64,000 bases of DNA from Rhodospirillaceae bacterium (GTDB lineage: Bacteria > Pseudomonadota > Alphaproteobacteria > Rhodospirillales > Rhodospirillaceae). The DNA lies in assembly GCA_029245025.1 (NCBI GenBank), contig JAQWQC010000025.1, forward strand, positions 1 to 64,000. Reading direction: 5' to 3'. The position numbers were made by a program, and so were the translations under genes. This document shows positions 22,444 through 60,185 of the stretch, piece after piece. The notes under the pieces were generated by a model. It ran no database searches, was not told the DNA's origin, and worked only from the letters and a program-made list of their open reading frames with translations. How positions within the stretch are numbered: position 1 is the first letter of the stretch; each line of letters opens with the position of its first letter.

Positions 22444-23271
22444 ATGGCGATTACAGTGCGACGGCTATATGTCGATGGGCCCTTTGGGCAAGTGCACATC
22501 AGAGAGGCGCGTCCCGCGGCTGGCGATACAACAAGAACGCCGCTGATTTGTTTTCACCAGAGTCCCGTATCAGGCGCGCAATATCGTCCTTTCCAAGACG
22601 AGATGGCGACGGATCGAATTGTCTGGTGCCCTGACACGCCCGGCTTTGGCGGTTCCGATGCGCCGCAGAATGTTGTGTCAATCGGTGACTACGCTAATGT
22701 TATGGCAACTGTGGTTGAGGCTCTTGGTTATGGTGGCGAGGGTCGCGGCGCCATAGATGTATTCGGCGGTCATACAGGAAGTGTCATCGGTACGGAGTTA
22801 GCGGTGACAAGGCCTGAGTTGGTGCGGAACGTTATATTCCCGTCTGTCGCGCTGTTCTCCAACGAGCAAAAGACAATGATGATGCAGCGATTTGGTGGAC
22901 CGCCAGAATATTTTACGGACCCAGACTTTGTTGCCAACTCTTACAAGCAAACCGTTTTGGATGGCCCTCAAGAGATTGATCCAGAGCGCCGGTTAGAGTT
23001 ATTCACTGAACGACTGCGATCGGGGATGAAGGCGTGGTACGCGCCAGAAGCGGTGATGAGCTATGACGCCGAAGAGCAGCTCAAGAAATTAACACAGCCG
23101 GCTCTTGTTCTGGTTCTAGATGACATGCTTGCAGAAAATACGCGTCTGGCTGTTTCGCTGATTCCCGACGCAAAGATCGTCGAGTTACTGCATATTTCTC
23201 ATGCTCTTGCGTGGGATCGCCATGCACCAGAGATTGCAAAAGTCATTCGAGCGTTCTGCGACGAGACCTAA
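22444..23271 (+). CDS. Alpha/beta hydrolase with histidine at the nucleophile position (paralogue 1)
   Basis: A start at ATG 22444 gives 275 residues; the longer start at 22423 adds seven unlike residues. The fold is clear: LICFHQSPVSGAQY (oxyanion loop), WCPDTPGFGGSD, the nucleophile-elbow region DVFGGHTGSVIG, and HISHALAWDRHAPE, where the catalytic His would lie. At the elbow, G-x-Nuc-x-G reads G-G-H-T-G, so His110 (this start) sits where Ser is expected. The same replacement is found in the two hydrolases at 58.4-60.2 kb. Substrate unknown. It is followed by DUF1838 paralogue C in the same orientation after 134 bases. Confidence 0.85.
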   Translation: MAITVRRLYVDGPFGQVHIREARPAAGDTTRTPLICFHQSPVSGAQYRPFQDEMATDRIVWCPDTPGFGGSDAPQNVVSIGDYANVMATVVEALGYGGEGRGAIDVFGGHTGSVIGTELAVTRPELVRNVIFPSVALFSNEQKTMMMQRFGGPPEYFTDPDFVANSYKQTVLDGPQEIDPERRLELFTERLRSGMKAWYAPEAVMSYDAEEQLKKLTQPALVLVLDDMLAENTRLAVSLIPDAKIVELLHISHALAWDRHAPEIAKVIRAFCDET

Positions 23272-23405
23272 CTGTGGGCCTCACGCGCCATTACGTCGAC
23301 GGACTTGAAGATTGTACGTAGGGGTATGCCGTCCGCTGCCTGGGATAATGGCGTGATACCCAATATCGTTCTGCGCGACCTTAGTTTTGAAGTGAAGGGG
23401 CAGTA

Positions 23406-24260
23406 ATGGCTGATGTGACACGACGCAATACATTGCTTGGAGGTGCGGCTATAGCAGCATTACCGTCAGCAAAGTCCGTTTCTGCGGAACTGCCATCCCA
23501 TCCAGCACAGCAGAACGAAGCCTATGTAAAAATTCTAGGCCGTACGGATGAGGGGCGGGTCACGAAAAAAACGCGTGGTATTGTCATGGCAGTGTTGCCC
23601 GATGCCGTTGTCCCGCTCTATGGCTTCCGCAATAGCGAGTCAGCGTGGTGGCGCAAAATTGATGATGCCAGTTGGGTTCGGTTTCCGTCTGTGTTGTCAT
23701 TCTTTACAGATCTGGAAACAAATACATTCATCGATACGTATAAGAGTCCCTTCAACGGTGAGACTGTCACATTGACTCCAAGTTTCATTCGTCACAAGGA
23801 AGGGGAGTTGTTTACGCCAACGGGCTACTACTACGGCAGCATGAAGCGAAGGTTCCCAGATCGATACCCAGATAAGCCTTTGCAGATCAACTGGACGCTT
23901 GACGGTGATGACATCCGTTTGCAACGGTCTTCGAATTTTCCGCCTATGATTCCGCAGCCATCATTGGAATCCGTATCTTATTTCTCAAGTGCGTCAGAGG
24001 TGTTCGATCCAAGCGTGCACGACGCTCACTATCGCTCCGCCGGATGGAATATTTTTTCCGGCATACGGGCGCCCTACCAAGCTCTAGGGATATTGCCGGG
24101 GCATGCGATCTGGCATTTCGATGCTGTTAAGCTCGATAGCGTAAACGCGTGCGATGCTGATTACTTGGAGCGCGCTCGCGCCTATACACCACTCTTTGAT
24201 CAGTCACCCGAACTGGATGAGGGCCCCTCATTTTTTGAGCGATTGATGGCGAACCGCTAG
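23406..24260 (+). CDS. DUF1838 protein with Tat signal (paralogue C)
   Basis: A 284-residue protein. MADVTRRNTLLGGAAIAALP is a twin-arginine signal (Arg6-Arg7). The DUF1838 landmarks are present: FFTDLETNTFIDTYKSPFNG, RYPDKPLQINW, and ALGILPGHAIWHFDAVKLDS near the C-terminus. It is more divergent than paralogues A and B are from each other. Downstream of a hydrolase lacking the serine nucleophile, it again pairs DUF1838 with a hydrolase, as A and B pair with the S10 peptidase-like protein. Confidence 0.83.
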   Translation: MADVTRRNTLLGGAAIAALPSAKSVSAELPSHPAQQNEAYVKILGRTDEGRVTKKTRGIVMAVLPDAVVPLYGFRNSESAWWRKIDDASWVRFPSVLSFFTDLETNTFIDTYKSPFNGETVTLTPSFIRHKEGELFTPTGYYYGSMKRRFPDRYPDKPLQINWTLDGDDIRLQRSSNFPPMIPQPSLESVSYFSSASEVFDPSVHDAHYRSAGWNIFSGIRAPYQALGILPGHAIWHFDAVKLDSVNACDADYLERARAYTPLFDQSPELDEGPSFFERLMANR

Positions 24261-24294
24261 ACTTTCGTACGACAGCTCACTTCCCCGGTGTGAT

Positions 24295-25728
24295 TTATTC
24301 AGCTGCGGCAGCGGCCGTAGTTTCCCAGTTTAGGAATCGCTCCCCGAGCAATCGACCCATTGTCAGGCAGCCCCCCACACTGGAGCCACCAAGATACGCA
24401 TTGCCCCAAATACCTAATCCCAGCATTTCACCACCGGCATAGAGGTTGGGAATTGCATTGTCATTCGCATCGAGAACGCGCAATTCGTTGTCGCAAGCGA
24501 TTCCACCAAAGCTGACGACCGATATGGCGTAGTGCTTGATTGCGTAGAATGGACCCTTCTCAATTGGGGCGGGTGTGTGTTTACGTCCCCACTGATCTGA
24601 ATTTACGACGCGCCCTTTATTGAATTGGTCGATTGTTGCTTTCAGGTTTTCAGCAGGGAGGCCGCACTTGTTAGCCAAACCTTCAACGGTATCCGCGCGG
24701 CAATAATCAGGATGAGACTCAAATGCTCGCTCAATTTTCTCTGCGTCCCAGTTTAAGAATAGCTGTGGTGCTTGATCCAGAATGCCCTGGTCATAGACTA
24801 GCCAACAGCTCCAGTCAGTTTGGTTCATGATTGTCCGTTCTCGGAAATCTTGGCTTTCCTCTTCTTCGTTGATGAAACGGCGACCTTCGTTGTTCACCAA
24901 AATTTCCCACGGCGCGCGCATGGCCGGGAAGGTGGAGGTATGAATCCAATGATCATCGGGCTTATCGACGTCGACCGTTCCACCGAACGTCATAATTAAG
25001 TTATCGGCTAACTGTATCTGGGCGCCGAGTTTGCGAGCCAGCTGAATGCCATCGCCTTTGGAGTGCTCATAGGTGTAGACCCGCTTTGGACGATTGTGAA
25101 ATTCTTTCCAGAGTTCGTCGTTGTTGGAATATCCACCACAAGCCAACAATGTTGATGACGCGAGAATTTCTTCGCGATCGTTTTTCTCTGTTTGTACAAC
25201 TATACCTTCGACTGCTCCATCGGCGCCGACAATGAGGTCTGTCATCCGTGTATTGAGACGCAGTTCAACATTGCAGCTTTCGAGAGCTTCATTAAATGCC
25301 GTCTCAAGAACAGCTACGTACGCCTTGCCTGCAGTGATCGGCGTGGTGATACGTGCGGTGGAATAGGGTTCGTGGCCTTGCCCAATAACCGGGTTATCAT
25401 CTGGGTGCTCAAGGCCAATCGACATAATCCAATCAAGCGTATCAGCGGAGTTCTCTTGCCATAGCCGCAATTTATCGTAATCGCCGGTGCCGTGGTTAAT
25501 CTGGATGCAGTCCTGAAAATGCTTATCAGGCGTGTCCTCGATCCCTTTCTTTTTCTGCAAAGCAGAGCCAGCTGCACTCATGGAACCGGAGGATAAATGC
25601 AAAGTGCCGCCCACTTTATTTGCGACGTCCACCACCAGGACTTTCGCGCCACGCTCTGACGCTTTGATGGCTGCTGGTATGCCAGTTGTACCGGCGCCAA
25701 CGATCACAATATCCCAATGATTGGACAT
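24295..25728 (-). CDS. FAD-dependent oxidoreductase, fumarate reductase/ketosteroid dehydrogenase type
   Basis: A 477-residue flavoprotein. The N-terminal dinucleotide-binding motif is DIVIVGAGTTGIPAAIKASE (Gly10-x-Gly12-x2-Gly15), followed by KVLVVDVANKVGGTLHLSSG and a C-terminal FAD-contact region, LYAGGEMLGLGIWGNAYLGG. The layout (flavin domain, inserted capping domain around residues 230-350, flavin domain) is that of soluble fumarate reductases, 3-ketosteroid delta-1-dehydrogenases and tricarballylate dehydrogenases. No heme or covalent-flavin motif is seen. The substrate is probably an organic acid or ring ketone, but this is not decidable. Convergent with DUF1838 paralogue C. Confidence 0.88.
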   Translation of the reverse strand: MSNHWDIVIVGAGTTGIPAAIKASERGAKVLVVDVANKVGGTLHLSSGSMSAAGSALQKKKGIEDTPDKHFQDCIQINHGTGDYDKLRLWQENSADTLDWIMSIGLEHPDDNPVIGQGHEPYSTARITTPITAGKAYVAVLETAFNEALESCNVELRLNTRMTDLIVGADGAVEGIVVQTEKNDREEILASSTLLACGGYSNNDELWKEFHNRPKRVYTYEHSKGDGIQLARKLGAQIQLADNLIMTFGGTVDVDKPDDHWIHTSTFPAMRAPWEILVNNEGRRFINEEEESQDFRERTIMNQTDWSCWLVYDQGILDQAPQLFLNWDAEKIERAFESHPDYCRADTVEGLANKCGLPAENLKATIDQFNKGRVVNSDQWGRKHTPAPIEKGPFYAIKHYAISVVSFGGIACDNELRVLDANDNAIPNLYAGGEMLGLGIWGNAYLGGSSVGGCLTMGRLLGERFLNWETTAAAAAE

Positions 25729-25750
25729 GCCGTGTTTCCCTTGTGTGATA

Positions 25751-25963
25751 TTATTTTTTCTGGCTGGTAAGGTACTGAGTGATTATTTCCAAAGCCAGGA
25801 TTATTGGCATGACTCGAAACGTCAATTTAGCGTTCTGTTGGGAATTATCCCAGGCTAGGACGTCGGGGATATACTGCTCTGCCTGGGCGAGATACGCCGG
25901 TGGTAAGTCATTAAAACTCTTGAGTTTGCTGCCAACACAGTGCCAAACAAAAGAGCTTTTCAT
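25751..25963 (-). CDS. Small hypothetical protein or fragment
   Basis: A 70-residue open frame in the gap between the flavoprotein and the exported 606-residue protein. The sequence (LPPAYLAQAEQYIPDVLAWD, then LTFRVMPIILALEIITQYL) has a protein-like composition but no recognisable family. There is no good Shine-Dalgarno sequence before its ATG. It ends 22 bases upstream of the flavoprotein start on the same strand. It may be a small leader gene or a relic. Confidence 0.3.
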   Translation of the reverse strand: MKSSFVWHCVGSKLKSFNDLPPAYLAQAEQYIPDVLAWDNSQQNAKLTFRVMPIILALEIITQYLTSQKK

Positions 25964-25983
25964 ATTTTTGGAGCGTATCTGTT

Positions 25984-27804
25984 ATGAAACAAGTATTGGC
26001 CGTATGCGCAGCGTTCGCATGTATTGCAGGCTTTAATATCGCCGAGGCAGATAACCGAAAGGTCGGCGTACTGTATGTTGTTCATGGCGGGTCGGAGAGC
26101 ACCGACATTGAGAGTTTGTGGGATAGCTCAATGCAAATCTTCGCCTATGACCCTCATTCCGCAATATACCAACGGGTGATCTGGAATGAAGAGGCATGGC
26201 CTACGGTCGCTTCGTTCGGAGATGGCCAGAGCTATAGCAATGTGGCGTCTCAGTTGGACAAGTACACTTTTCAAGATGATCGCATAGGTCACGACCCCAA
26301 CGCACAGCGCACCCAAAAACAAATGGAAGATATGACGGCTGCGCTCAAAGCGCGTGAAGTGGATCTGGGTGTCACATTCTTTATCGACAAGGCTCAATGG
26401 ATCGGTTCGCTGGAGCAGACAAAGTTTTTGCCCGATCCCCGTCGGCTATATGAGCCACAGGTGGAGGGCGGCTCACGCTTAACCTATTGCGGTAGTGAAC
26501 CTGATGGAGGGCCTTGGGCGGGCTGTGATCCTGAGCGATATAACATTGACGGTCCGGCTGAGCGCCTTTTGACCAAGGGCGTCGACGAAATCATCATTAT
26601 CGACATGACAACTGCGGCTGTGCGTTTTTGGAAAAGCTATGACGTGGTCCGTGTAACGCGCGATGTTGTGAATCGTCACAATGCTAAGCATGGAACGGAC
26701 ATTCCTGTCACATGGGTAAATGATCCGACAGACTTGATGCGAGAGTCTTATCCTCTTGAGCCAGAGAATTGGACCCGCAGCCTGGGAACGCCGATCAAAG
26801 ACAGTGTTGTGCCCTTAGCGGGCCGTCCTAATCCAGTGACGGAAGACCCTGCTTTTGCTGCTCTGTACATCAGCGGAATCGAGAAACGTCTTAATCCAGC
26901 CGCGGCCGACAAGGACACGGCAGTGATGATCATCAATCATTCAATCCGGGATGGGAACGAGACCTACGACCCCAAGGTCAACGATACGGTCGCGCTGAAT
27001 GACATGCTTAAAGCGGAGGTGTTGCGCACTCATCCTGATATCGACCCAGATAATATCATCGGCACATGGATGGGGCTTCGGGTTGAGAATCCAAACATTA
27101 AACTTGGCGGACGTGTGCGGTCTAACCTAGAGCGGTCCCGTGAAATGCGGGCCGAGAACCTTGGTCACAGGTGGCTGTATGAAACCGATAAGGCTCCCCC
27201 CGGCGGTGATCAAAAGTATTTCTATTGGGGTGGTCTGGAATATCTCAAAGATCGCGGCGTGAAGCACATTGTAATTGTCTTTACGCAGGTGGTAATCGAC
27301 TCCGTGCTAACTCTCGTGGAAGTGCCAAATCAAATCGGCAAAGAAATAGGCACCAAGACGTGGCTGTATGAGGCCGCGGGTGACTTTGACCGATACCCCA
27401 ATCATGGCCACCCCTTCGCTGACTATTGGGGCCGCCAAGCCGACACCATGTGCCGCCCTGTCGGCGCGCCTGTTGATGCGCCAGGGTCCGAGCCCTGCTG
27501 TTTTGTTATGGGCGGCTGTGGCACGTCTCAGCCCTATCCACCATTGCGTCAGACGCCGATTGATCAAGCCATGCAGGACACAGACCCTCATTTGGTACGC
27601 GATCTTTCTGCTTATGGTCACCTTGGGTATGACCCTGCCCAAGGTCCTCCAAGTGATGAACGGCCCGTGCAAAATCAATATACGGGCACCTGGGCAGTCT
27701 GGGATCCAATCAATGAGGATCCACGCATGGGAGAGTTTTTGGCTGATAAAGTCGTCCGCCACATGGAGATGAGCCAGGCAAAGGTTCAAAAAGCGTCACG
27801 ATAG
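25984..27804 (+). CDS. Exported 606-residue protein, possibly ferrochelatase/CbiX-like fold
   Basis: Begins with a signal peptide (MKQVLAVCAAFACIAGFNIA, cleavage near EADNR). After it, RKVGVLYVVHGGSES resembles the first strand and loop of ferrochelatase and CbiX-type chelatases. In the second half, KHIVIVFTQVVIDSVLTLVE resembles their second domain (VPISFVSDHVETLxE-like). The likeness is weak and the protein is about twice as long as a normal ferrochelatase. A cysteine-rich insert (MCRPVGAPVDAPGSEPCCFV and GGCGTSQ) may bind metal or form disulfides. It leads a three-gene run with a hydrolase and a CpcT-like protein. Activity unknown; a periplasmic location is likely. Confidence 0.55.
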   Translation: MKQVLAVCAAFACIAGFNIAEADNRKVGVLYVVHGGSESTDIESLWDSSMQIFAYDPHSAIYQRVIWNEEAWPTVASFGDGQSYSNVASQLDKYTFQDDRIGHDPNAQRTQKQMEDMTAALKAREVDLGVTFFIDKAQWIGSLEQTKFLPDPRRLYEPQVEGGSRLTYCGSEPDGGPWAGCDPERYNIDGPAERLLTKGVDEIIIIDMTTAAVRFWKSYDVVRVTRDVVNRHNAKHGTDIPVTWVNDPTDLMRESYPLEPENWTRSLGTPIKDSVVPLAGRPNPVTEDPAFAALYISGIEKRLNPAAADKDTAVMIINHSIRDGNETYDPKVNDTVALNDMLKAEVLRTHPDIDPDNIIGTWMGLRVENPNIKLGGRVRSNLERSREMRAENLGHRWLYETDKAPPGGDQKYFYWGGLEYLKDRGVKHIVIVFTQVVIDSVLTLVEVPNQIGKEIGTKTWLYEAAGDFDRYPNHGHPFADYWGRQADTMCRPVGAPVDAPGSEPCCFVMGGCGTSQPYPPLRQTPIDQAMQDTDPHLVRDLSAYGHLGYDPAQGPPSDERPVQNQYTGTWAVWDPINEDPRMGEFLADKVVRHMEMSQAKVQKASR

Positions 27805-27822
27805 GGTGATGGTTTGATCATA

Positions 27823-28788
27823 ATGATCAAATTACTCCTGCTGCTTACATTCCTGTTGCCGACCGCTTCTTTGGGTGCGGACGCCTATAAACTTAACTCC
27901 GGTCCCCTCGACGTTGTTGTAGCTGATCATGTCGTTATTGATCAGGGTGATCGAGCGCTAGCCTTACGCCTAGCCTATCCGTCTTCCGGCGGTCCGTATC
28001 CGGTCGTCGTGCTCTCTCATGGGGGTGGATGTATTGGCGGGAGTTACAGCGTCGTCGGCGATCATTGGGCATCTCATGGGTACGTGGTGATTCAACCGAC
28101 CCACCCGGATTCAAAATCAACCGGGTTTGATATGGCGAATGTTGAGCCGCGTATGATGGAAGGGATTATTCGCCAACGTATGAGCGACATGTCTTTGGTG
28201 CTCGATCACCTCAGCGATATCGAGGCTGAAACGCCAGCGGTGGCCGGAAAGATCGACTACGAGACTTTCGTTGCGGCGGGGCATTCCATGGGTGCGGCTA
28301 CGACCTTGTCCGTGACAGGTATGGTCATTGAGAATCCGTTCACCAAACAGAAGATCGAATCCCCTGAAAATCGTTTTAAAGCCGCGTTGCTGCTCAGTGA
28401 GCCAGGTCATAACCCGACTTTGCCCCAAGAGCCGTGGCGCTCGATCACCATTCCCACATTTGTGTATACCGGAACCGATGATTATGGATCGTTGTCTCGC
28501 GACAACTCTAACATTCCGTTTCAGTATAACTTGGTGAGCGAGACTCCCGATGACGCTACGGACAAACACTATTTGTGGATTGATGGTGTAGACCACTATC
28601 TCAGCGGTGGGTGGTGCCGTGCGCCCCTTGAAGAGCCATATGATCGTGAGGCTATCGCTATTCTAAATGGTGTCAGTACGGCGTTTTTGGATGCCTATGC
28701 GAAATTCGATCAAGCCGCATTGGCCTTTCTAAGGTCTAACAATCTGCCAGACTCCGCTGGATCGCGCTCAAAATTGAGCCAGCCCTAA
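27823..28788 (+). CDS. Exported alpha/beta hydrolase (PAF-acetylhydrolase/chlorophyllase-like)
   Basis: 321 residues from ATG 27823 (a TTG at 27814 is also in frame). Signal peptide MIKLLLLLTFLLPTASLGAD. The hydrolase core shows VVVLSHGGGCIGGSYSVVGD (oxyanion region), the nucleophile elbow FVAAGHSMGAATTLS with a conventional Ser, Asp in YTGTDDYG, and His in IDGVDHYLSGG. The fold and the HGGG loop resemble the PAF-acetylhydrolase/dienelactone hydrolase/chlorophyllase group. It starts 18 bases after the 606-residue gene, so the two are co-transcribed. Unlike three other hydrolases in this window it keeps the normal catalytic serine. Confidence 0.85.
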   Translation: MIKLLLLLTFLLPTASLGADAYKLNSGPLDVVVADHVVIDQGDRALALRLAYPSSGGPYPVVVLSHGGGCIGGSYSVVGDHWASHGYVVIQPTHPDSKSTGFDMANVEPRMMEGIIRQRMSDMSLVLDHLSDIEAETPAVAGKIDYETFVAAGHSMGAATTLSVTGMVIENPFTKQKIESPENRFKAALLLSEPGHNPTLPQEPWRSITIPTFVYTGTDDYGSLSRDNSNIPFQYNLVSETPDDATDKHYLWIDGVDHYLSGGWCRAPLEEPYDREAIAILNGVSTAFLDAYAKFDQAALAFLRSNNLPDSAGSRSKLSQP

Positions 28789-28855
28789 TAGCTTGAAGCA
28801 TCTTTCCCTTTTTGCACCTTCCGCTTACGCTTGCTGAAGCAAAGGGGGGCGGATC

Positions 28856-29887
28856 ATGCGATATATAATTCTGGCGCTTGCATTGTTGTTGGCAACGCCG
28901 GTTTCAGCGACAAACTCAAAACCTGAGTTGGCTAAAGTCTTAGAGGACCTGTTGGCTTGGTTGCCGGGCGAGTACACGTCTATTCCACAGGTATACCTGG
29001 AGCGCGCGTTGGGCGCTCCTCCCGATGGCGAGCACGAAATTTACTACCGCGTGTTTGCAGAGATTGACGCACCTCATCTAGCTGAGCATGTGATCTACAC
29101 ACAGATCCGGCTTGATGGAGATGACGGGACAATTTTCCCTGGTCAACAGCAAGCCTTTCTAATTTCAATGGATGAAGAGAACAGCCGGGTATCGATCTCG
29201 GGCCGCCGTATTAAAGATCCGGAAAAGTATGTCGATGCCCATCTTCATCCTGAGATGTGGTCGACAATCGCACCGGACCCAGATTTTGGAGGCAACTGCA
29301 CCTTCAATTGGCGCCGTCATGGCAAACAGTTACGCGGGCTTCTCGGAGACCACGGTCAATGCACCATGGTGTCGAAGAGAAGCGATCAGGAAATGACCTG
29401 GGATGCGGAGTGGATTCTCAATCCCGATCAGCTCTGGATATATGACAATGGAACACTGGCGGACGGAACCCTCTTTGCTGGGCGCGAGGACCGGACACAC
29501 CTGCGGCTGTCGAAGGCGCAACGCTATGAATGTTTTACGTCGTTACGGTTTTCAGACGGTTCTACTCAGGTGATCAATCCGTTTTTCATGCATGACCGGG
29601 GTGATGTTTTCACGTTTGAGACCGACGAAGCAGAACCGAGGGAGCTTCACATAGAATTTCTAAACTCTCTTTGGCCGTCTAACTCAGGTCGCAACTACGT
29701 TGATCTCTTGCGCTTGACTCTGCACGACGGTCAGCCTGGCGCATACGAAGAGAGTGAAGTAATAGGATTTGCTTGGGCGGAACCGTCTAGCAATCGGGTC
29801 GGATTCACAACTGAATGGGCAAGTGCGAGGTGCAAAGTCGCCGCGCCCGACGACCCCCGATTGAAAGCGGCGATGATGGGGGAATAG
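28856..29887 (+). CDS. Exported protein, possibly CpcT/CpeT-like
   Basis: A 343-residue protein with a signal peptide (MRYIILALALLLATPVSA). After it the pattern LLAWLPGEYTSIPQVYLE, then EHVIYTQIRLDGDD, GNCTFNWRRHGKQLRGLLG, and MTWDAEWILNPDQLWIYDNG resembles the CpcT/CpeT beta-barrel family. That family includes phycobiliprotein lyases but also many uncharacterised proteobacterial members. A C-terminal beta-rich extension of about 120 residues is unrecognised. It follows the GHSMG hydrolase by 67 bases in the same orientation. Family assignment is tentative. Confidence 0.5.
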   Translation: MRYIILALALLLATPVSATNSKPELAKVLEDLLAWLPGEYTSIPQVYLERALGAPPDGEHEIYYRVFAEIDAPHLAEHVIYTQIRLDGDDGTIFPGQQQAFLISMDEENSRVSISGRRIKDPEKYVDAHLHPEMWSTIAPDPDFGGNCTFNWRRHGKQLRGLLGDHGQCTMVSKRSDQEMTWDAEWILNPDQLWIYDNGTLADGTLFAGREDRTHLRLSKAQRYECFTSLRFSDGSTQVINPFFMHDRGDVFTFETDEAEPRELHIEFLNSLWPSNSGRNYVDLLRLTLHDGQPGAYEESEVIGFAWAEPSSNRVGFTTEWASARCKVAAPDDPRLKAAMMGE

Positions 29888-29890
29888 GGA

Positions 29891-31324: not shown

Positions 31325-31351
31325 ATGAAGGCGGTATCCTTGAGTTCAGAG

Positions 31352-32440: not shown

Positions 32441-32622
32441 ATGATGGTCCGTAGGCCTTAAGGTTCAGAACGTACTGGTCATTTAGGCGATCGCTGGCCG
32501 CGCAACAAGTCCGCAGCTCTACAGCCTTTGTTGGGGCGGCTGCGGGAATGGGGTTACACCCTTGTTGGACCCCGTGTATCACTGCGGTAATTGACCTCAG
32601 GTAAGTCGAGTCTGCGAACGCT

Positions 32623-49190: not shown

Positions 49191-49276
49191 CGAGGTTCTC
49201 TGGCTTTGTGGGTGGTTTTAGGCTCCACGCCCTCTCTTACCCTAAGGGTTCCAATAACTAGTACAAGTAAAAATAG

Positions 49277-49290: not shown

Positions 49291-49396
49291 TATTTCTGTT
49301 AAGTGGTTAGCAAAATCAAATTATTCCTATTGGAAACAATTAGTTATGGGCTTCGAGAATTCGCCTCAGAGTCGCTGCGAGAGGCTTAGATAAACC

Positions 49397-49705
49397 CTAT
49401 TCGTCCAACAGACTGCTCAATTTGAGGGCGACTCCCTTAGATCCGAAGATCTTGAGCTTCCCCATGGTGAACGCGACCATTGGATTAAGGTCGCCTTTGA
49501 TCAGCTTTTCCAAATTCCCAGACGAGAGCACCAAGGTTGTTTCTGCATCTTCGTCATTAGGGTTAGGGGTGACAACAAGGTCATCACCTGTGGCGTCGAT
49601 CAAAATCTTACCCTCTTCTTCGAGTTCGAACAGCACGCTGTGATTCAGGTCTGCTAGGTCCATTGCACGAGATCGCACAGCGTCCACGATTTGGTCGAAA
49701 TTCAT
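49397..49705 (-). CDS. SCP2 sterol-carrier-domain protein
   Basis: A 102-residue stand-alone SCP2 domain: HSVLFELEEEGKILIDATGD, a central TTLVLSSGNLEKLIKGDLNP, and VAFTMGKLKIFGSKGVALKL, the conserved MGKLKIxGD-like strand. SCP2 domains bind lipids or acyl-CoA in a hydrophobic tunnel. It sits just upstream of the fatty-acid operon on the same strand, in keeping with a lipid-binding role, but the operon palindrome lies between them, so they are probably transcribed separately. Confidence 0.9.
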   Translation of the reverse strand: MNFDQIVDAVRSRAMDLADLNHSVLFELEEEGKILIDATGDDLVVTPNPNDEDAETTLVLSSGNLEKLIKGDLNPMVAFTMGKLKIFGSKGVALKLSSLLDE

Positions 49706-49818
49706 TGAGGTGTTCCTCGCTTCCTATTCTCTGTGGTCGCCTTAGCGTCCAAGATGGTATTCAAGCTTAAGATACGCAAAACGCGTCAGGCCATGAAAAA
49801 GTAAAGACGAGAGAACCT

Positions 49819-51027: not shown

Positions 51028-51070
51028 AGAGCAAGGCCGCTAATGCCTACGTCTTATAAGGAGTTTTGTT

Positions 51071-52297: not shown

Positions 52298-52420
52298 GCT
52301 AGCCGTTGGATGTCTGATTTTGTGGTGACGGTTTAGAGGGTCTGTGATGTATCGCGATGATGTCACAATGGTCTTCAACAAAATTATCACTAAGTCCGAT
52401 GAGGCGTCCTCAGTGCCCTC

Positions 52421-52843
52421 ATGACTTTGCACCTTCTTAAATTGGCTGTTGGGATTGAACACGTTGACCAACTCAAGGAGCGTCAAGAACGTTTCAAAAA
52501 TGACGTGGGTCATTACCAGCACACTACACGCATGTTTCCCAAGCGGGAGGCAGAGTTGCTCGACGGTGGTTCCATGTTCTGGGTGATGAAGCGGCTTGTG
52601 TCAGTGCGCCAGAAAATTATCGCCCTGCATCGAGAGAAAGATCCTGAGGGGCGGGGCTATTGTATCATCGAGCTTGCCCCTGAGCACATCTTGGTCGCGC
52701 CCCAACGTAAACGACCGTTTCAGGGGTGGCGCTATCTTAAACCCGAGGATGCGCCAAAAGATATGACATCTATGGACGGTTACATTGACCCTGATATGCC
52801 CTCCGATATGAGGGCCGAGCTCAGCCGTATTGGACTTATCTAA
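52421..52843 (+). CDS. DUF1489 family protein
   Basis: A 140-residue protein typical of alphaproteobacteria: LHLLKLAVGIEHVDQLKERQ, TTRMFPKREAELLDGGSMFW, the central IELAPEHILVAPQRKRPFQGW, and RYLKPEDAPKDM near the end. Conserved Trp and Arg residues suggest a nucleic-acid or RNA role, but no function is established. Monocistronic, convergent with the SDR at 52.8 kb. Confidence 0.88.
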   Translation: MTLHLLKLAVGIEHVDQLKERQERFKNDVGHYQHTTRMFPKREAELLDGGSMFWVMKRLVSVRQKIIALHREKDPEGRGYCIIELAPEHILVAPQRKRPFQGWRYLKPEDAPKDMTSMDGYIDPDMPSDMRAELSRIGLI

Positions 52844-52845
52844 AC

Positions 52846-53700
52846 TTACATGATTTCTGGGTGGTCGTGTTGGGATTGGAGGCAGCCTGCGAAAGCCGTC
52901 GCCGCATCTATGTCTTGATCCCAGAGCTTCGCAATGACACGTCGACCTGTTAGTCCGTTGGTTTCATCTGTGCACATCCACACGGCCGGTGGAACGATGA
53001 CATCGCCGGGCAAAATTTTATCACCGCGCGTACCGACGTCTCCCGGGACCATTGTCTCGGGAATAAAACCTGTGTCCGATGCGCCACCAGGCAGCAGGAT
53101 GTTGACGTCGACGTTGTGCTCTGCAAGTTCCCGCGCCCAGACAATATGTGCCGTTTCCAGGCCCGATTTGGATGCGCCGTAAGGGGACAGCCCGTTACCG
53201 ATCATAGTGGTCAGGCTGGTAGATATGCTGAACACTTTGCCAAATTTGCGCTCGATCATGTGAGGCACGGTTGCTTTCGTCATGAGAAACGAACCGGTGA
53301 GATTCGTGTCAATGACCGAATGCCATGCTTCGACCGGTACGTCCCAGAATTTGGTCGTGTTGCCGCCTTGATAATCAATGCGGTACTCGCGACTGCCGCG
53401 CCCCGCATTGTTGATCAGCACATCCACTTGACCGAATGCATTCAACGTTTCTTCCACAGTCCGCTGGCAATCATCCCAATCTCGCACATCAGCCTGAATG
53501 GCGACGCAGTGACCAGGCTCTGCTATCGCTTCAGCTTTAGCAATAAGGTCGCCTCTCTCTTCAGGTGGGCGTGTCCCGGTGATGGCAATTTTTGCGCCGC
53601 CCGCTAATAACTTTTCTGCGATGAACCAGCCAAACCCAGCGGTGCCACCCGTGATCAGAACCACTCGGTCCTTGAGCGAGGAATGGAAGAGGTTAGACAT
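52846..53700 (-). CDS. Short-chain dehydrogenase/reductase
   Basis: A 284-residue cytoplasmic SDR: VVLITGGTAGFGWFIAEKLL (TGxxxGxG cofactor loop), NNAGRGSREY (NNAG), an active-site Ser in VFSISTSLTTMIG and YGASKSGLETAHI with Tyr-x-x-x-Lys. The Gly-rich ITGTRPPEERGD after the second strand suggests a preference for NADP. The substrate is unknown. Alone on this strand between two convergent or unrelated genes. Confidence 0.9.
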   Translation of the reverse strand: MSNLFHSSLKDRVVLITGGTAGFGWFIAEKLLAGGAKIAITGTRPPEERGDLIAKAEAIAEPGHCVAIQADVRDWDDCQRTVEETLNAFGQVDVLINNAGRGSREYRIDYQGGNTTKFWDVPVEAWHSVIDTNLTGSFLMTKATVPHMIERKFGKVFSISTSLTTMIGNGLSPYGASKSGLETAHIVWARELAEHNVDVNILLPGGASDTGFIPETMVPGDVGTRGDKILPGDVIVPPAVWMCTDETNGLTGRRVIAKLWDQDIDAATAFAGCLQSQHDHPEIM

Positions 53701-53762
53701 GGCGGTGCTCCTTGCAAGGTCTTTTCATTGCGAGCAGTTGAGTAATGTCGCGTATCTCGTTG

Positions 53763-54179
53763 TCAGGCAGTTTCATCTTCTGTTTCCAATCGCATCCGAC
53801 GCTCTGTCAGCGTCTCATCCTCATATAACCAAAAATCTGGACCCCTTACGGATCTCCAATCTTTACCGAACCTCGTATTGAGCAGGCTCAGCGTGACCTG
53901 ATTGAGAGAGGTTGCCTCTCCATCGAACTCCACCTCTCGATCGCTTGCAACCTGACAGGACACTGTCTCGTCTCGAATGAAGGTGAGTTCAGATCCCGCT
54001 GGGATATCGACCATGGAGAATCGGAATACCGGTTTCCGCGCACGAACACGTTTCAGGCTCTCGACGTCCTCCTGGTCCTCAACGATGTCCGAGGTCGGGG
54101 TGACGTCCTTCAGAGACCATCCCTCTAGGATTGCTTTTACCCGCTCTGGGTTGGTGAGGATGTAGACGATTTCGGTCAT
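53763..54179 (-). pseudogene. GIY-YIG/DUF4357 protein with the nuclease domain deleted
   Basis: A 138-residue open frame begins MTEIVYILTNP, the start of a GIY-YIG domain, and then reads ERVKAILEGWSLKDVTP, which in full-length relatives comes after the catalytic domain. About 60 residues that would carry the second catalytic motifs (KIGxT, RxxxL, Glu) are missing, joined in frame. The C-terminal region is intact: PRGxELTF-like segment (PAGSELTFIRDETVSC), FDGEATSLNQVTLSLLN and GPDFWLYEDETLTERR, the DUF4357 pattern. It may still be translated as a small DUF4357 protein, but it cannot be a nuclease. A low-confidence hairpin lies just upstream. Confidence 0.6.
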
Positions 54180-54199
54180 GTTATTACTCTACTCAAATA

Positions 54200-54219
54200 G
54201 GGGGGCCTGGAAACCCCCC
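54200..54219 (-). terminator. GC stem-loop downstream of the EamA gene
   Basis: Six G and six C residues flank an 8-base loop. On the minus strand it follows the EamA stop by about 110 bases. There is no clear T-run, so terminator function is doubtful. Confidence 0.3.
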
Positions 54220-54330
54220 AGACGACCGGGAACCTTTAGACCTCATTATGTTTCAGTGACTTAAAGGGTCCCATATTCAATCCCAGTCTACAAAACCATC
54301 TCACCTTTAAGAGACGGAATTGCAGGTCGA

Positions 54331-55221
54331 TTAAAGAAGCGGCGGTAGAATGATTAACGGTACGCCGAACACCATAAACCCAATGCCAATCAGTTTCGGT
54401 GTCGTCAGTGGTTCGCCCAAGAAAATACGGCCCAGCAGCAACGCTGAAAGAAGTCCAATCACGCGCTTGAGCGACTCTACCACCCCGATCAGTGTCAGTT
54501 GATAAGCGACCAGCTGGGTTGCATAGGCCACGCCAGCAGCGATAGACGCCAGGGCGGCGGGCGTGATGCCCACACGTGAAATGGTTAAGGGCTTCCGTTG
54601 TGTTGCCGCCAAGTATGCGATCAACACCGCTGACATTATGCAAACTTGAATGAAGCCGTGGCTCTCCGGTGACGATAACGCCATGCTTGCTTTGTCCAAT
54701 GGCGCCGTGGCCGACCACAATACCGCTACGATGAGCATCAAACGCGCGCCTCTATCCGTAGCGAAGCGTTTGATCACAGTGATCGGATTGGGGTTTTCTG
54801 CCGGTAGGTAGAGCGACATCAAACCGATTACAGCCAGAACAATACCCAAGCCTTGTTGGGGTGTTGGAATTTCATCCAAGGCGACGGCGGCGAAAACGGC
54901 GGTGATCACCGGGACCAACCCGAGCACTGGGACCGTAAGACTGAGCGAACTGACACGCAGCGCCATCAAGAAAAATAGATTGGCCAAAATACCCGCCGCA
55001 GCTGTCACCAGCCCTATGGGCCAGTATCCGTCCAATATGGTGAGTGACCCTGTATAGGCGACCCAGGCACCCAATAAGGGCACTTCACCCACCAAGAACA
55101 GGGTCAGCAGAACGACCGGCGGAAAATGGTCTGCTGCCGCTTTTCGAAAGTAGTCACTGGCGGCAAATCCGGCCGCACAAACCAGTGTGAAAATGAGGGC
55201 AGGGAGGGAGACTGCGAGCAT
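54331..55221 (-). CDS. EamA/DMT-type membrane transporter
   Basis: A 296-residue protein with about ten hydrophobic helices and the two EamA repeats: LPALIFTLVCAAGFAASDYF starts the first, and TRKPLTISRVGI-like residues precede the second (RVGITPAALASIAAGVAYAT). It ends IGIGFMVFGVPLIILPPLL. Such permeases export small metabolites in the drug/metabolite transporter superfamily. Substrate unknown. Divergent from the decayed Gly/Tyr-rich gene. Confidence 0.88.
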   Translation of the reverse strand: MLAVSLPALIFTLVCAAGFAASDYFRKAAADHFPPVVLLTLFLVGEVPLLGAWVAYTGSLTILDGYWPIGLVTAAAGILANLFFLMALRVSSLSLTVPVLGLVPVITAVFAAVALDEIPTPQQGLGIVLAVIGLMSLYLPAENPNPITVIKRFATDRGARLMLIVAVLWSATAPLDKASMALSSPESHGFIQVCIMSAVLIAYLAATQRKPLTISRVGITPAALASIAAGVAYATQLVAYQLTLIGVVESLKRVIGLLSALLLGRIFLGEPLTTPKLIGIGFMVFGVPLIILPPLL

Positions 55222-55350
55222 GCTACGTCCCGGTTACGGCCTCACGGCCTTGTGATTGTTGTGGAATACCTTCTGCCATATTGCTGCCTTGGCATTGGGG
55301 TTTGTGACGAAGCTGAACATTCGCATCGAACGTTTACACGGGAGGCACCG

Positions 55351-55977
55351 ATGAAGCTAGGGACCTTGAGCTTAACCATCGCGATTACGGTTCTGACAGC
55401 GGCTGGGACATCTGCGGCAGCGGAGAATAAACACTCGTCCATTCTTGGTGAGATTATTTACGCAATCGGCGATACCATCGCTGAACAAGCTTACTACTAT
55501 GATCAATACTATGGCGCAGGATCTAGCCTTTATGTGTCAGGTTCGATCTAGGGCAGCCCGCCACGGCTTGGCGGGTTTTATGGCCGTGGCGGTTACGGTC
55601 GCGGTTATGGCAAGGGTTACGGTCCGGATTATGGCAGAGGTCCGCAATGGGATCATTATCGCCACCCCTACCCTCGCTATGGCTTCAAGCCTTATCGCAG
55701 AGGTGGCTATTATCGACCATAGGGTCCTTATGGTCGTGGATATGGTTGAGGATACGGCCGCTAATGCTACCCCAACCCCAACATAATTCCCTATGCTGGA
55801 TATGGATATGGAAAAGATCGCGGCCGCGATCATGGTCCCCGTCTGCAGATCTTAGGGGCGACCTATCGCTCTGTTGATGGCAGGCCATGCAATGCCTTTA
55901 GCTACGCCCACCGCAAGTGTGACGGCGATAAGTCTTGCACCGTGAATGTGACCAACAAAATTTGCGGGAATAAGTAA
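55351..55977 (+). pseudogene. Secreted Gly/Tyr-rich protein interrupted by four in-frame stops
   Basis: One reading frame of 209 codons from ATG 55351 to TAA 55977 keeps register throughout but is broken by four internal stops: TAG after VSGSI, TAG after GGYYRP, TGA after GPYGRGYG, and TAA after GYGR. The pieces read as one protein: signal peptide LSLTIAITVLTAAGTSAAAE, a Gly/Tyr/Arg-rich middle (GGFYGRGGYGRGYGKGYGPD), and a cysteine-containing C-terminal module (ILGATYRSVDGRPCNAF, then RKCDGDKSCTVNVTNKICG) resembling short lectin-like modules. With no indels in 627 bases, decay is recent or readthrough occurs. The first 66 codons alone could still make a small exported peptide. Confidence 0.65.
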
Positions 55978-56142
55978 TACACAGTCAATACGCCGGAGCG
56001 GTCCCGTAGCAAATTGCGCTGCCGCTAAGGCCGAGTTTTCAGCAGCACCACTGCATTAGGCGGCGGCGGCCAAAAAATCAGACAAGATTGTCACATAGCC
56101 GCCGTTGACCTGGGGCGTTCTGGGCCCCATGTTCCGGGCGTT

Positions 56143-57129
56143 ATGGAAGCCATCAAAACCCGCCTCAACACGATTTGGAAGGCCGTCAAGCGGCTGGTTG
56201 CACGCGATGCTGAAGATACGCCTTCGCCATTACCACTGCGTATAGCGGCGGCTGTCGTTGCCATATTCGTCATTTACTATGGTGTCGGTATGGCCTGGTA
56301 CAACACCATCGCCGACGACATCGAGTTCCAGCCGACAGAAGAGTACGCGGTGCAAAGTGGGGCCAAAGCCGTTGCCACGGCGGCAGCTTTGGTCGATCGC
56401 GAAGCGCGCCGTTGGTCGCCAAATAAGCCTTGGCTGCATCCGGCCTATGGTCTCGACAACATGCCCAATTATCAGCTCGGTGTTTTGTACTCGGCCTCTC
56501 GCTTTGCGATCGAGTTAGGCGATGCATTGGGCCGCACCCGTGGGTCATCAGCCATTGATCCAGATCTCGACCGCGCTGCGGGTTTGCTCAAATACGACGG
56601 CACGATTTGGTACTGGGGGGCAGGTAATTTTGTTCCCACTGCCACTGCGGATTCCCAGTACCGTGAAGGTGTTGACGCGCTGATGTCTTATAACGCTCGC
56701 CTGGCCAGCGGTGATGCGACCTACGAGCGCCGCGCCGATAACCTGATTGATCTCCTCAACCGTGTGGCGTCTGACCTTGGCTCTGCGTCTGCTGCGCTAG
56801 ATGAACGTACCTTGCTGTCCAACGCCGGATATTTTGATACTCGTGCCGATGATCTGTTCTACAATATCAAAGGACGGCTGTACGGCTATGCCTTGATACT
56901 CCGTGATGTCGGCGATGATTTCGGAGCCGTGATTGGTGAAAAACAGTCTAGCGGCCTGTGGGAGCAGATGCTGACAAGTTTGCGTACGGCGGCAGAAATG
57001 GACCCGCTGGTTGTCGCGAATGGCAAGCAAGACGGCATGTTTGTTCCGTCGCACCTGTCGGCTCAAGGGTTCTACTTGTTGCGCGCCCGCACTCAGCTCA
57101 AAGAGCTCACCGACGCCCTCACCAAATAG
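56143..57129 (+). CDS. DUF2333 family protein
   Basis: A 328-residue protein with one transmembrane segment ([20 protein letters not shown]) near residues 34-54 and a soluble periplasmic part: [40 protein letters not shown] and [20 protein letters not shown]. This matches DUF2333, a family of alphaproteobacterial inner-membrane proteins of unknown function. It precedes msrB by ten bases, so the two are probably co-transcribed. Confidence 0.88.
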
Positions 57130-57139
57130 GCAGATTGTT

Positions 57140-57541
57140 ATGTCCGACAAGATCGAAAAGTTAGAAGAAGACTGGAAGGCTGAGCTTACTCCCGAGCAGT
57201 ATCATGTGCTTCGAGAGAAGGGCACCGAGCGGGCCTGGACCGGCGTCTACAACGACTTCAAAGGCGATGGCCAATTCCATTGCGCCGGGTGCCACGCCCC
57301 TTTGTTTGATGCAGGAACCAAGTTTGATTCTGGGTCCGGTTGGCCGAGCTTCTATGACATGGTCAATCCAGAGGCCGTCAAAGAAATTAGTGACAACAGC
57401 CATGGCATGATCCGCACTGAAGTGGTTTGCGCCAAGTGCGATGGTCATCTGGGTCATGTATTTCCCGATGGACCTAACCCCACGGGACTACGCTATTGCA
57501 TCAATTCTCTTTCGATCGTTCACGAGAACGACAAAGCTTAA
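57140..57541 (+). CDS. msrB: Peptide-methionine (R)-S-oxide reductase
   Basis: A start at ATG 57140 gives 133 residues; the frame extends upstream inside DUF2333, but [20 protein letters not shown] is the family start. Structural zinc Cys48, Cys51 (CAGC) and Cys97, Cys100 (CAKC); motif GSGWPSFYD; catalytic Cys120 in LRYCINSLS. It repairs the R-epimer of methionine sulfoxide with thioredoxin. It is followed with zero spacing (TAA-GTG) by the DUF427 gene. Confidence 0.96.
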
Positions 57542-58018
57542 GTGTCTACGCGCCAAACAGAATCTGTTTGGGATTACCCGCGCCCTCCGGCGCTTGAGCC
57601 TGATAGTCGCCATGTTCGGGTCGAGTTCGCAGGAGAAACAATCGCGTCCAGTAACGCGGTCTATCGGCTATTGGAAACCAGTCACCCGCCCACGTTCTAT
57701 ATTCCTGCGGATGATGTGAACTTTAACTTCCTCGTCGGTAGCAACAAACAATCGTTCTGTGAGTGGAAGGGGGCGGCCGCGTACTGGACAGTGAAGGTCG
57801 GTCTGCAAGTTGCTGACAACGCCTGTTGGAGTTATCCCAAACCGACCAAGCGGTTCGCGGTCATCAAAGACTATGTCTCGTTCTATCCCAGCCGTATGCA
57901 CACCTGTTATGTGGGGGATGAAAAAGTCGACGCCCAAGAGGGCGATTTCTATGGTGGTTGGATCACCTCAGAGATCAAAGGACCTTTCAAAGGCGGTCCC
58001 GACACCTGGGGGTGGTAG
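57542..58018 (+). CDS. DUF427 family protein
   Basis: A 158-residue protein starting at GTG directly after the msrB stop. DUF427 pattern: ESVWDYPRPPALEPDSRHVR, AGETIASSNAVYRLLETSHP, TFYIPADDV, CEWKGAAAYWTVKVG and CWSYPKPTKRFAVIKDYVSF. The family is a small beta-rich fold of unknown function. Its immediate coupling with msrB suggests a role in oxidative stress, an inference from position only. Confidence 0.85.
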   Translation: MSTRQTESVWDYPRPPALEPDSRHVRVEFAGETIASSNAVYRLLETSHPPTFYIPADDVNFNFLVGSNKQSFCEWKGAAAYWTVKVGLQVADNACWSYPKPTKRFAVIKDYVSFYPSRMHTCYVGDEKVDAQEGDFYGGWITSEIKGPFKGGPDTWGW

Positions 58019-58032
58019 CGAAGATCAGCCCG

Positions 58033-58335
58033 CTACTGTCTTCCGACCCATAATGAATCTGCTTCGGCCCCGGGGTAGATGCCTTTACGAATCATCGCAT
58101 CCGTAAAAGACACTCCAGCGGCTAAAACACCCAGCCTGACCTGATCTTTCCCCGGTGCGGGAAGATCTACCTTGTGAACCAGCGAGAGTACATCGGGGCC
58201 ACCAAACTCAGAGATCACAACCTGCCTGTATCCTGATTTAGGGGTATCTGAGTCAGCTGCCGGTGAGCCGCTTACCAGGTTTGCCGTAAACAAGATAAGA
58301 AAAGTGGTCGAATAGATTGATTTGTGATTAAGCAT
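58033..58335 (-). pseudogene. N-terminal fragment of an exported zinc-type (MDR) quinone reductase
   Basis: From ATG 58335 (the frame opens at 58386) the product has a signal-like segment (HKSIYSTTFLILFTANLVSG) and then the start of an MDR reductase: YRQVVISEFGGPDVLSLVHK, LPAPGKDQVRLGVLAAGVSF, TDAMIRKGIYPGAEADSLWV, ending at a stop soon after. Intact relatives continue for about 220 residues past GKLPFVPGYD-like text. The NAD-binding Rossmann domain is missing entirely, because the convergent DUF427 gene ends 15 bases beyond. Truncated remnant. Confidence 0.6.
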
Positions 58336-58396
58336 TTGAATGCCCGTTCTTAAATGAACACTATTGTATCCCCGAATCAACATCACACTATTCGGG

Positions 58397-59185
58397 CTAC
58401 CCCTCGCTCAAAAACTCATCCACCACTTTGGCAATTTCTTCCGGTGCTTCGTAAAACAGGAACGCGCCGACATCGGGCATGACCACCCGGCGTGAGTCTT
58501 TGATGACGTCCAATAGTTTCTCTTGGCCGGTGACAAAGGTATCTAGCTCGCCTTGCATCAGCAGCACTGGGCAAGTCAACTTGGCGCAGGCCTCGGCCTT
58601 GTTCCACTTTAGAATCGGATCGTGGGCATCGTAGGGCCGCATGCGTTCTTTCATATTCACCAGAAATACCCGGTGCATCAGACTCATGGGGGTATTTGGA
58701 CCTGCTAGTGTGGCGTAGATATTCCACATCTTGTTGAGGAAAGCGCCGTCCGCTGTGATTTCCGGCTGAGCCGTATCTGTGCGGTGCTTGAGCAGTTCTT
58801 CCAGTTCTTCGGGGCTGCGGTGTCCGGTTCCAGAGGCAATGACATGAGTCACGCGCTCCGGCTGTTGGGCGGCGATGTCGACACAGATGGATCCGCCACC
58901 GTGGTGACCGAGCATGGCGGCTTTGTCGATGCCAAGCGCATCCATGGCTTGAATAACAGTGCGCGTGTAGTCGGTCATTTCCGGCTCGTGTGTGGGGTCG
59001 TCGGTCATGCCGTGCCCCAGCCATTCAATGGCCCACACGGTGTATTTGTCTTCCAAGAATGCCGCCATGTCCTTGTATTCTTCAGCGGTCTGGGTGGATT
59101 GATGGAGCACCACGAGGTTTGGCCCGTTGCCCGTTTTCCAATAGTGCATTTGCCCCATATCTGAGTCGACGTAGCCGCGTTTCAT
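58397..59185 (-). CDS. Alpha/beta hydrolase without Ser nucleophile (paralogue 2)
   Basis: A 262-residue protein with the hydrolase fold: LVVLHQSTQTAEEYKDMAAF, AIEWLGHGMTDDP, elbow AAMLGHHGGGSICVDI with His95 where Ser is expected (G-H-H-G-G), Asp in MQGELDTFVTG, and PDVGAFLFYEAPEEIAK at the end, where the usual catalytic His is replaced by Ala. Both nucleophile and base positions are therefore non-canonical. Co-oriented with paralogue 3, 172 bases apart. Catalysis by a different mechanism, or a non-catalytic role, is likely. Confidence 0.85.
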   Translation of the reverse strand: MKRGYVDSDMGQMHYWKTGNGPNLVVLHQSTQTAEEYKDMAAFLEDKYTVWAIEWLGHGMTDDPTHEPEMTDYTRTVIQAMDALGIDKAAMLGHHGGGSICVDIAAQQPERVTHVIASGTGHRSPEELEELLKHRTDTAQPEITADGAFLNKMWNIYATLAGPNTPMSLMHRVFLVNMKERMRPYDAHDPILKWNKAEACAKLTCPVLLMQGELDTFVTGQEKLLDVIKDSRRVVMPDVGAFLFYEAPEEIAKVVDEFLSEG

Positions 59186-59357
59186 GGCGTTTTCTCCCTG
59201 TCTTTACTCCGGTGGGAAACATTCTGCCACGAATGGGATACGAAGTAAGGGGCGTAATTTGGGTTCGTTTGTATTTTTGTGTTGCATGGGCGCGTTTGCG
59301 CGAACGCACGTGCATGGGCTCGTTCCTCGCAAGTTCGAGAAAAGTTTTTGAGGGGAG

Positions 59358-60185
59358 CTAATCCGCCGTGTCAGGCCAGATGTCTTCGTCGAGAAACGGC
59401 CTCACAAACGCTGCTGTTTCTTCTGTGTGGTAGTCCAGGAACCCGTGACCCCAATCCATCAGCTCAATAATTTTGCCGTTGGTCAGATGTTCCTTGATGC
59501 GCCGGGTGTAGACCACCAAGTCATCGTTGGTGTTGATCACCAGAATCGGTTGTTTCACGTCAGGAATGTTCGCTGGGTAGGTGTAGGAGAATGCAGCAGC
59601 ATGGCCCCAGTGCTTGTGTTCGCCGCCCCGAATATGATCCGGGTAGGCATGCATGATGTCTGCCGGGGTTTGTTCTGGGCCGCGCCAACGCCACAGTCCC
59701 GCCCAGGAATGGAGGAGGTGAGAGCCATCTTCGACGGGCATGTCTGGACTACCCATTTCGGAATTCTGTTTGGCTAAATCCGCCTCGGTATAGATCGGCG
59801 CTGAAATTAGGACGAGGTGCTTGATCCGATCGGGTTGTTGATGCGCCAACTCGACGCAGGTCTTTGAGCCTGTGTGATAACCCATGATATCGGCCTCTTG
59901 AATCTCCAGGGCATCCATCACATCTGTCATGGCTTGTGCGAACGTGCTGATCGTCGGTTGCTCCGGTGGAAAGTCAGACATGCCATAGCCCGGCGTATCT
60001 GGCGCGACAATGAAGCGGTCTTTGCCCATTTCAGCCAACCAGTTTTCATAGACAACGCCAGACGACGGGCTGAGGTGGAAGCAAAGCATGGTGCGCTTGT
60101 CACCGCCGGGGTTACCGGCCATGCGCAGATGAATTTGACCGTTTCGGCCTTGAATGTAGGTGCGTCGCAAAGGGACTTTTGTCAT
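59358..60185 (-). CDS. Alpha/beta hydrolase with His at the nucleophile position (paralogue 3)
   Basis: A 275-residue alpha/beta hydrolase: MLCFHLSPSSGVVYENWLAE (oxyanion loop), VAPDTPGYGMSDFPPEQPT, elbow ADIMGYHTGSKTCVELAHQ with His104 at the nucleophile place (G-Y-H-T-G), Asp in VINTNDDLVVY, and the catalytic His in MDWGHGFLDYHTEE. It resembles paralogue 1 at 22.4 kb most closely (shared FHxSPxSG, APDTPGxG and GxHTGS). Co-oriented with paralogue 2 downstream. Substrate unknown. Confidence 0.85.
   Translation of the reverse strand: MTKVPLRRTYIQGRNGQIHLRMAGNPGGDKRTMLCFHLSPSSGVVYENWLAEMGKDRFIVAPDTPGYGMSDFPPEQPTISTFAQAMTDVMDALEIQEADIMGYHTGSKTCVELAHQQPDRIKHLVLISAPIYTEADLAKQNSEMGSPDMPVEDGSHLLHSWAGLWRWRGPEQTPADIMHAYPDHIRGGEHKHWGHAAAFSYTYPANIPDVKQPILVINTNDDLVVYTRRIKEHLTNGKIIELMDWGHGFLDYHTEETAAFVRPFLDEDIWPDTAD

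Follow-up and report, generated by a model that had tools for sequence, protein, structure and literature searches.

The model we propose here concerns a large, uncharacterised family of proteins with the alpha/beta-hydrolase fold in which the Ser of the nucleophile elbow is replaced by His. Three of its members, named P0001, P0002 and P0003, are encoded in the window, that is, the whole stretch of 64,000 nucleotides that was analysed (Rhodospirillaceae bacterium, assembly GCA_029245025.1, contig JAQWQC010000025.1, positions 1 to 64,000). Our data support the placing of this His exactly at the nucleophile position, in a genuine subfamily. In the model, an acid-base dyad formed by the elbow His and the Asp of strand beta-7 would carry out a non-covalent, lyase-type chemistry, each paralogue being devoted to one substrate; we give this whole proposal a probability of about 0.4.

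P0001 (22423-23271, + strand) combines an FHQSPVSG loop, a G-G-H-T-G elbow whose His is encoded by CAT at 22771-22773 (+), the beta-7 Asp and a C-terminal His (ISHALAWD). P0003 (59358-60185, - strand) has the FHLSPSSG loop, the G-Y-H-T-G elbow with His104 encoded by CAC at 59874-59876 (-), Asp221 and His247. In P0002 (58397-59185, - strand), the elbow is G-H-H-G-G (CAC at 58901-58903, -) and the beta-7 Asp is present, but LHQSTQTA stands in the place of the FHxSPxSG-type loop of the two others, and the beta-8 His column is occupied by Ala (VGAFL) instead of the His found in P0003 (WGHGF) and in P0001. All three exceed the Pfam Abhydrolase_1 cut-off, and where the Ser-His-Asp hydrolases present Ser, Cys or Asp at the elbow, all three present His. 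An earlier note on this DNA had claimed the His at the three elbows, a loop common to two of the copies and the lack of the catalytic His in the copy at 58.4 kb, and these claims are borne out, the Ala of P0002 being aligned to the C-terminal His of P0003. The GHSMG motif that it used as a control at 27.8 kb (P0004, 27814-28788, + strand) is real and belongs to an ordinary Ser hydrolase, but it makes a weak control: its Pfam set differs from that of P0001-P0003 and it scores above the cut-offs of the PAF-AH, chlorophyllase and PETase-like families. Better Ser controls are the Ser-type relatives found elsewhere in the source genome.

Structure prediction had been suggested as a check on the elbow His. 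The models of P0003 and P0002 show the canonical alpha/beta-hydrolase fold with the strand-5/helix elbow, and the His at the place of the nucleophile. In the profile-PDB alignment, the elbow His is matched to the Ser of PDB 8ynv and to an Ala of 8ynw; the Foldseek title of 8ynw reads 'S102A mutant', and this Ala is taken to be residue 102. A Ser or Thr displaced by one place into the nucleophile position, which would have spoken against the reading of the earlier note, did not appear in the alignment. The Thr next to the His was considered as a displaced nucleophile and rejected, for it aligns with the residue that follows the Ser and opens the helix, and P0002 has Gly there.

Three copies in one window had suggested a subfamily; the subfamily is genuine, but the number was too low. 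The source genome (3.09 Mb, 36 contigs) contains 51 matches to P0003, and a profile search recovers 48 segments with E no higher than 3.5e-31, after which the matches resume at 3.2e-21. The strong domains (>100 bits) number 47, carried by 40 open reading frames (ORFs), and their elbow residue is His in 34, Tyr in 3, Trp, Gly and Ala in 2 each, and Thr, Phe, Gln and Ser in one each. One further ORF of this genome, L015 (elbow GLHTG), stands outside the 47 domains: more than 150 aligned profile positions were needed to enter the domain tables, and its match, being split in two, was thereby dropped. Beyond this genome, tblastn (E up to 1e-3) finds relatives, not necessarily all of the His family, in at least 567 stretches, 80 of which were retained. 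They come from marine and freshwater alphaproteobacterial metagenome-assembled genomes (MAGs), from gammaproteobacterial MAGs and from isolates, among them Sphingomonas, Sphingobium, Novosphingobium, Hyphomonas, Parvularcula, Glacieibacterium and Nonomuraea. Family members were seen in the culturable Sphingobium chungbukense and Novosphingobium resinovorum SA1. The nearest relatives of the source bacterium suggest that it is aquatic. In the window and loci L009-L132, 224 domains in 186 ORFs were aligned. Counts below refer to distinct domains or ORFs, after removal of ten domains that were exact copies of others and of five repeated ORFs, all of which arise from overlapping G069, G298 and G139 stretches; alignments A4 (62 rows) and A6 (53 rows) cover a subset of the loci. 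The profile search for G-x-H-x-G hydrolases that the earlier note had called for yields 214 distinct domains, with His at the elbow in 186, Ser in 6 and another residue in 22.

The distribution among genomes shows a lineage-specific expansion. In a family-level sample of 59 genomes, 5 to 34 matches are found in 19, one in 4 and none in 36, these copy numbers being bounded by the candidates scored per genome (60, 44, 39, 9 or 7). Outside this sample the His-elbow family is rare: it occurs in 13 of 289 genomes of the class sample (E up to 1e-45) and in 5 of 349 genomes of the phylum sample (E up to 1e-40), the source genome being included and few candidates being scored per genome in both. In a tree rooted with a small, hand-chosen Ser outgroup, all the His tips except L035 belong to one clade, which holds 206 of the 216 tips and has a support of 0.81; this support drops to 0.40 once L035 is included. 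The monophyly of the His-elbow proteins is only moderately supported. The 206-tip clade also contains the Ser paralogue L016 (L016:4561-5391), which has a GSSLG elbow and a gap at the beta-8 His column and is nested in the His-elbow family, its placement in the tree being weakly supported.

At the level of the alignment, the elbow His is conserved jointly with Thr105 (the residue that follows it), the beta-7 acid, His19 of strand 2 and His37 of the oxyanion loop. Among the 186 distinct His-elbow domains, Asp/Glu63 is present in 186, His37 and His19 in 183 each, Asp/Glu221 of beta-7 in 182 and Thr105 in 175; the beta-8 His247 is found in only 105, all of which also have the acid. No His at all occurs at positions 236-262 in 47 of the 186, and the acid is retained in 44 of these 47 (33 of 35 when 12 truncated windows are left out); in the source genome, the corresponding figures are 18 of 34 and 17 of 18. 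When the elbow is neither His nor Ser, the acid falls to 11 of 22 and His19 to 13 of 22 (Fisher 1.3e-9 and 5.4e-8, relatedness ignored). A cluster of three His (elbow, DGSHL and YGHxA) does not hold as a rule of the family, since His156 occurs in 133 of the 186 domains and His195 in 122, and P0001 has neither.

P0002 and P0003 are under purifying selection. Compared with five orthologues, P0003 has a ratio of non-synonymous to synonymous substitution rates (dN/dS) of 0.03-0.09 and P0002 one of 0.02-0.18, at dS values of 0.6-1.8, and the P0003-P0002 gene order is retained in L041-L045. Two family domains occur in 34 of the 173 distinct family ORFs, both with the elbow His in 22, the first alone in 9 and neither in 3, so that in nine fusions one partner domain has lost its His. 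Same-strand neighbour pairs no more than 150 bp apart number 33 in 117 loci, several of them being one locus in related genomes. Part of the family is likely to work as paired subunits.

These observations lead us to the following mechanism. Ser hydrolases use the acid to keep the beta-8 His in its proper orientation. In the His-elbow proteins, the imidazole of the elbow would reach the usual site of the beta-8 His and pair with the beta-7 Asp, so that the Ser-His-Asp triad would be reduced to a dyad of elbow His and Asp, which would work as general base and acid, independently of any cofactor. The main argument for this dyad is the survival of the acid where the beta-8 His is gone, since the dyad would make use of it. 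An enolate would be stabilised in an oxyanion hole made of the HxSPxS loop and the Thr105 NH. The reaction would be that of a non-covalent lyase, a decarboxylase, a C-C hydrolase or a ring-opening enzyme in the catabolism of cyclic compounds, with substrates that would be intermediates produced by enzymes of the flavin, Rieske or VOC type; each of the many paralogues would handle one substrate, and part of them would act as paired domains. As the change to His is conserved in many species, the His-elbow proteins probably perform a chemistry that Ser enzymes do not. The earlier note had offered unusual chemistry or a binding role; given the purifying selection and the retained acid, unusual chemistry is likely, and none of our results separates lyase, decarboxylase, oxygenase and metal enzyme.

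Several observations weigh against this proposal. The beta-8 His is retained in 105 of the 186 domains, P0001 and P0003 included, where the dyad is not needed. In the source genome, the elbow of some paralogues carries Phe, Tyr, Ala or Gln, and that of L016 carries Ser. The share of His (186 of 214) is not a population estimate, as 29 of the 30 rows of the collecting profile have an elbow His. As to the gene neighbourhood, most neighbour clusters are named from one to three members; a VOC neighbour or fusion is found in 9 of the 125 sequences (window and L009-L132), from seeds picked by eye beside family genes; the three expanded genomes G069, G200 and G298 lack DUF1838, and G664 has 34 Rieske genes and no family match.

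Other functions for the elbow His have to be considered. The proteins could be non-catalytic binding or receptor proteins: ligand sensors, or pseudoenzymes like those of the Ndr family. The loss of His from one or both halves of the two-domain ORFs (9 of 34 with His in the first domain only, 3 of 34 in neither), the elbows that carry Phe, Tyr, Ala or Gln, and a weak Ndr match would fit this role, but P0003 scores 22.6 bits against Ndr (Pfam PF03096), below the cut-off of 23.3, and the beta-7 acid, His19 and Thr105 accompany the elbow His (182, 183 and 175 of 186) as they would in a catalytic site. We consider a binding role unlikely, though least so for the members or second domains devoid of His. 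The elbow His could also be itself a covalent nucleophile, making of these proteins hydrolases or acyltransferases that proceed through an acyl-imidazole. Its position is exactly that of the acting Ser, Cys or Asp, and P0001 and P0003 retain the acid and the beta-8 His as possible helpers. This mechanism seems quite improbable to us, since 47 of the 186 domains (12 with truncated windows) have no His in the C-terminal window to act as a base and since, to our knowledge, acyl-imidazoles are rare as enzyme intermediates for esters.

A metal site of the 2-His-1-carboxylate type, built from the elbow His, the beta-8 His and the beta-7 Asp, would account for the presence of the acid in all the 105 domains that have the beta-8 His, and export of a folded, cofactor-loaded protein would suit the N-termini of 15 family ORFs, which resemble signals of the twin-arginine translocation (Tat) system. 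As the full set of residues exists in only 105 of the 186 domains and is missing from P0002, we hold a metal-dependent enzyme to be very unlikely. Slightly less credit still may be given to a cofactor-free oxygenase of the HOD/QDO kind, dioxygenases that cleave rings in an O2-dependent reaction; they would have the fold in common with our proteins, and ring-oxidation-type neighbours exist in some loci, but the known HOD/QDO enzymes keep the Ser together with a His/Asp dyad. Decayed or artefactual Ser hydrolases, to which the additional lack of the beta-8 His in one copy might point, can practically be dismissed: the low dN/dS contradicts decay for both P0002 and P0003, and together with the His conserved in 186 of 214 distinct domains it led us to reject a sequencing error or a pseudogene.

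The elbow-His/Asp dyad that we favour can be compared with known systems of the same fold. The arylesterase/haloperoxidase group (1zoi, 1a88, 1va4) and the enol-lactonase 2xua have Ser where our proteins have His, at 15-19% identity; in further contrast to them, P0001 and P0003 show the HxSPxS loop and many members lack the beta-8 His. The Ser of the C-C hydrolases of meta-cleavage products (BphD, DxnB2, CarC, CumD, HsaD) is absent here, and P0002 falls far under the NCBIfam cut-offs (48.7 of 400 bits for HsaD, 45 of 462 for BphD). Tomato MKS1 belongs to the serine-less carboxy-lyases of this fold. Such lyases, treated in section 2.7 of a 2024 survey (PMC11878206), catalyse without Ser by means of an acid-His dyad, as our proteins would in the model; their His is understood to be that of beta-8, whereas ours occupies the elbow, and the beta-8 His is missing from P0002. 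That section lists Ser, Asp and Cys nucleophiles besides the serine-less dyads and no elbow His; the fold itself is known. No paper on a GxHxG or His-nucleophile alpha/beta hydrolase was among the matches listed in the open-licence literature, and the PDB sequence searches returned distant relatives only. An expansion of similar size, to tens of paralogues within a single catabolic enzyme family, is described for the aquatic SAR202 bacteria (PMC6946804). It concerns FMN (flavin mononucleotide) monooxygenases, enolase-type racemases and Rieske oxygenases, and hydrolases are not mentioned by that word in the text.

The alpha/beta-hydrolase fold is among the best studied enzyme folds, and a conserved family in which the acid stays while the Ser, and frequently the usual catalytic His, is lost offers a direct test of how this scaffold passes from hydrolysis to other chemistry. 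The family has expanded in Alphaproteobacteria that are aquatic to judge by the titles of related records, along with DUF1838 and, less strictly, with Rieske genes. This expansion would hint at steps still to be assigned in the degradation of dissolved organic matter, and it places DUF1838 in a genomic context for the first time. A broader claim seems doubtful to us, namely that the elbow His and the beta-7 Asp, joined by the beta-8 His in P0003-like members, would define a new catalytic class, working as an acid-base dyad or as a 2-His-1-carboxylate metal site, whose forty or so paralogues per genome, many of them paired or fused, would be the main catabolic tool for recalcitrant dissolved organics.

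Catabolic-type genes do neighbour the family in part of the loci. In the window, P0001 is followed by a DUF1838 gene (23406-24260, +; PF08894 5.9e-6, 26.7 bits for a cut-off of 25; Tat-like N-terminus by eye) and by an FAD_binding_2 flavoprotein (24295-25728, -), while two other DUF1838 proteins (13424-14392, -, PF08894 1.6e-40; 14416-15327, -, PF08894 1.1e-19) and a vanillate O-demethylase-like Rieske oxygenase (18588-19718, -; PF00355 2.2e-23, PF19112 2.9e-18) lie upstream. For a 606-residue ORF at 25984-27804, neither Pfam nor NCBIfam yields a match with an E value of 0.01 or less. When BLAST clusters of genes within 3 kb are compared, DUF1838, FAD_binding_2 flavoproteins and NAD_binding_10 proteins recur near His-elbow genes in 8 loci each; the flavoprotein and NAD_binding_10 clusters partly reflect plain synteny, five of the 8 FAD_binding_2 loci being one syntenic locus in related genomes. 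Seven loci have a VOC gene 5-154 bp from a family gene and on its strand, in an eighth the two overlap, and an HsaA-like monooxygenase occurs in L023 (313 of 450 bits). In two Novosphingobium megaplasmids, which carry no annotation in the stretches concerned and were analysed through their ORFs, an ORF that resembles a transporter lies between two family genes (E 4e-60 to 3e-77).

In the 59-genome sample, where genera repeat, DUF1838 is found in exactly the 19 genomes with at least 5 family matches (3 to 45 matches each) and in none of the 40 others; the source genome has 40 matches, and within genus g2, G664 has neither family nor DUF1838 match. Outside this sample, DUF1838 occurs in 5 of the 16 carriers and in none of the 18 genomes that lack a family match. 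It was nevertheless rejected as an obligate partner, since G069 (at least 9 family matches), G200 (at least 9) and G298 (5) have none. These three genomes belong to a second alphaproteobacterial family, f48, which has its own expansion without DUF1838, made mostly of two-domain frames of about 565-670 residues. The Rieske genes have a hand-counted median of 11 (range 1-16) in the 19 genomes and of 1 in the 40, among which G664, with 34, departs strongly from the rule.

Some minor observations may be added. A simple motif test finds Tat-like N-termini in 15 of 178 family ORFs (duplicates included), 5 of the 40 of the source genome among them (e.g. L022, L032, L033, L029, L025), and some DUF1838 proteins have one by eye; as predicted from these N-termini, export to the periplasm is suggested for both groups. 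In L037:4321-6066 (-), from the source genome, a single ORF joins an N-terminal VOC/glyoxalase-like region to a His-elbow domain (GYHSG). A family of about 230 residues is found beside His-elbow genes in 8 loci (L023:6172-6858, L042:6832-7545, L053:8037-8768, L067, L087, L090, L092 and L101), with no Pfam or NCBIfam match in the two members scanned (L023, L053). Finally, a protein some 400 residues long, whose C-terminal part is a methyltransferase domain, lies near the family in 9 loci, three of them in the source genome (sites include L110:1956-3188, L163:13203-14384 and L164:15929-17110), and has homologues in the two Novosphingobium megaplasmids.

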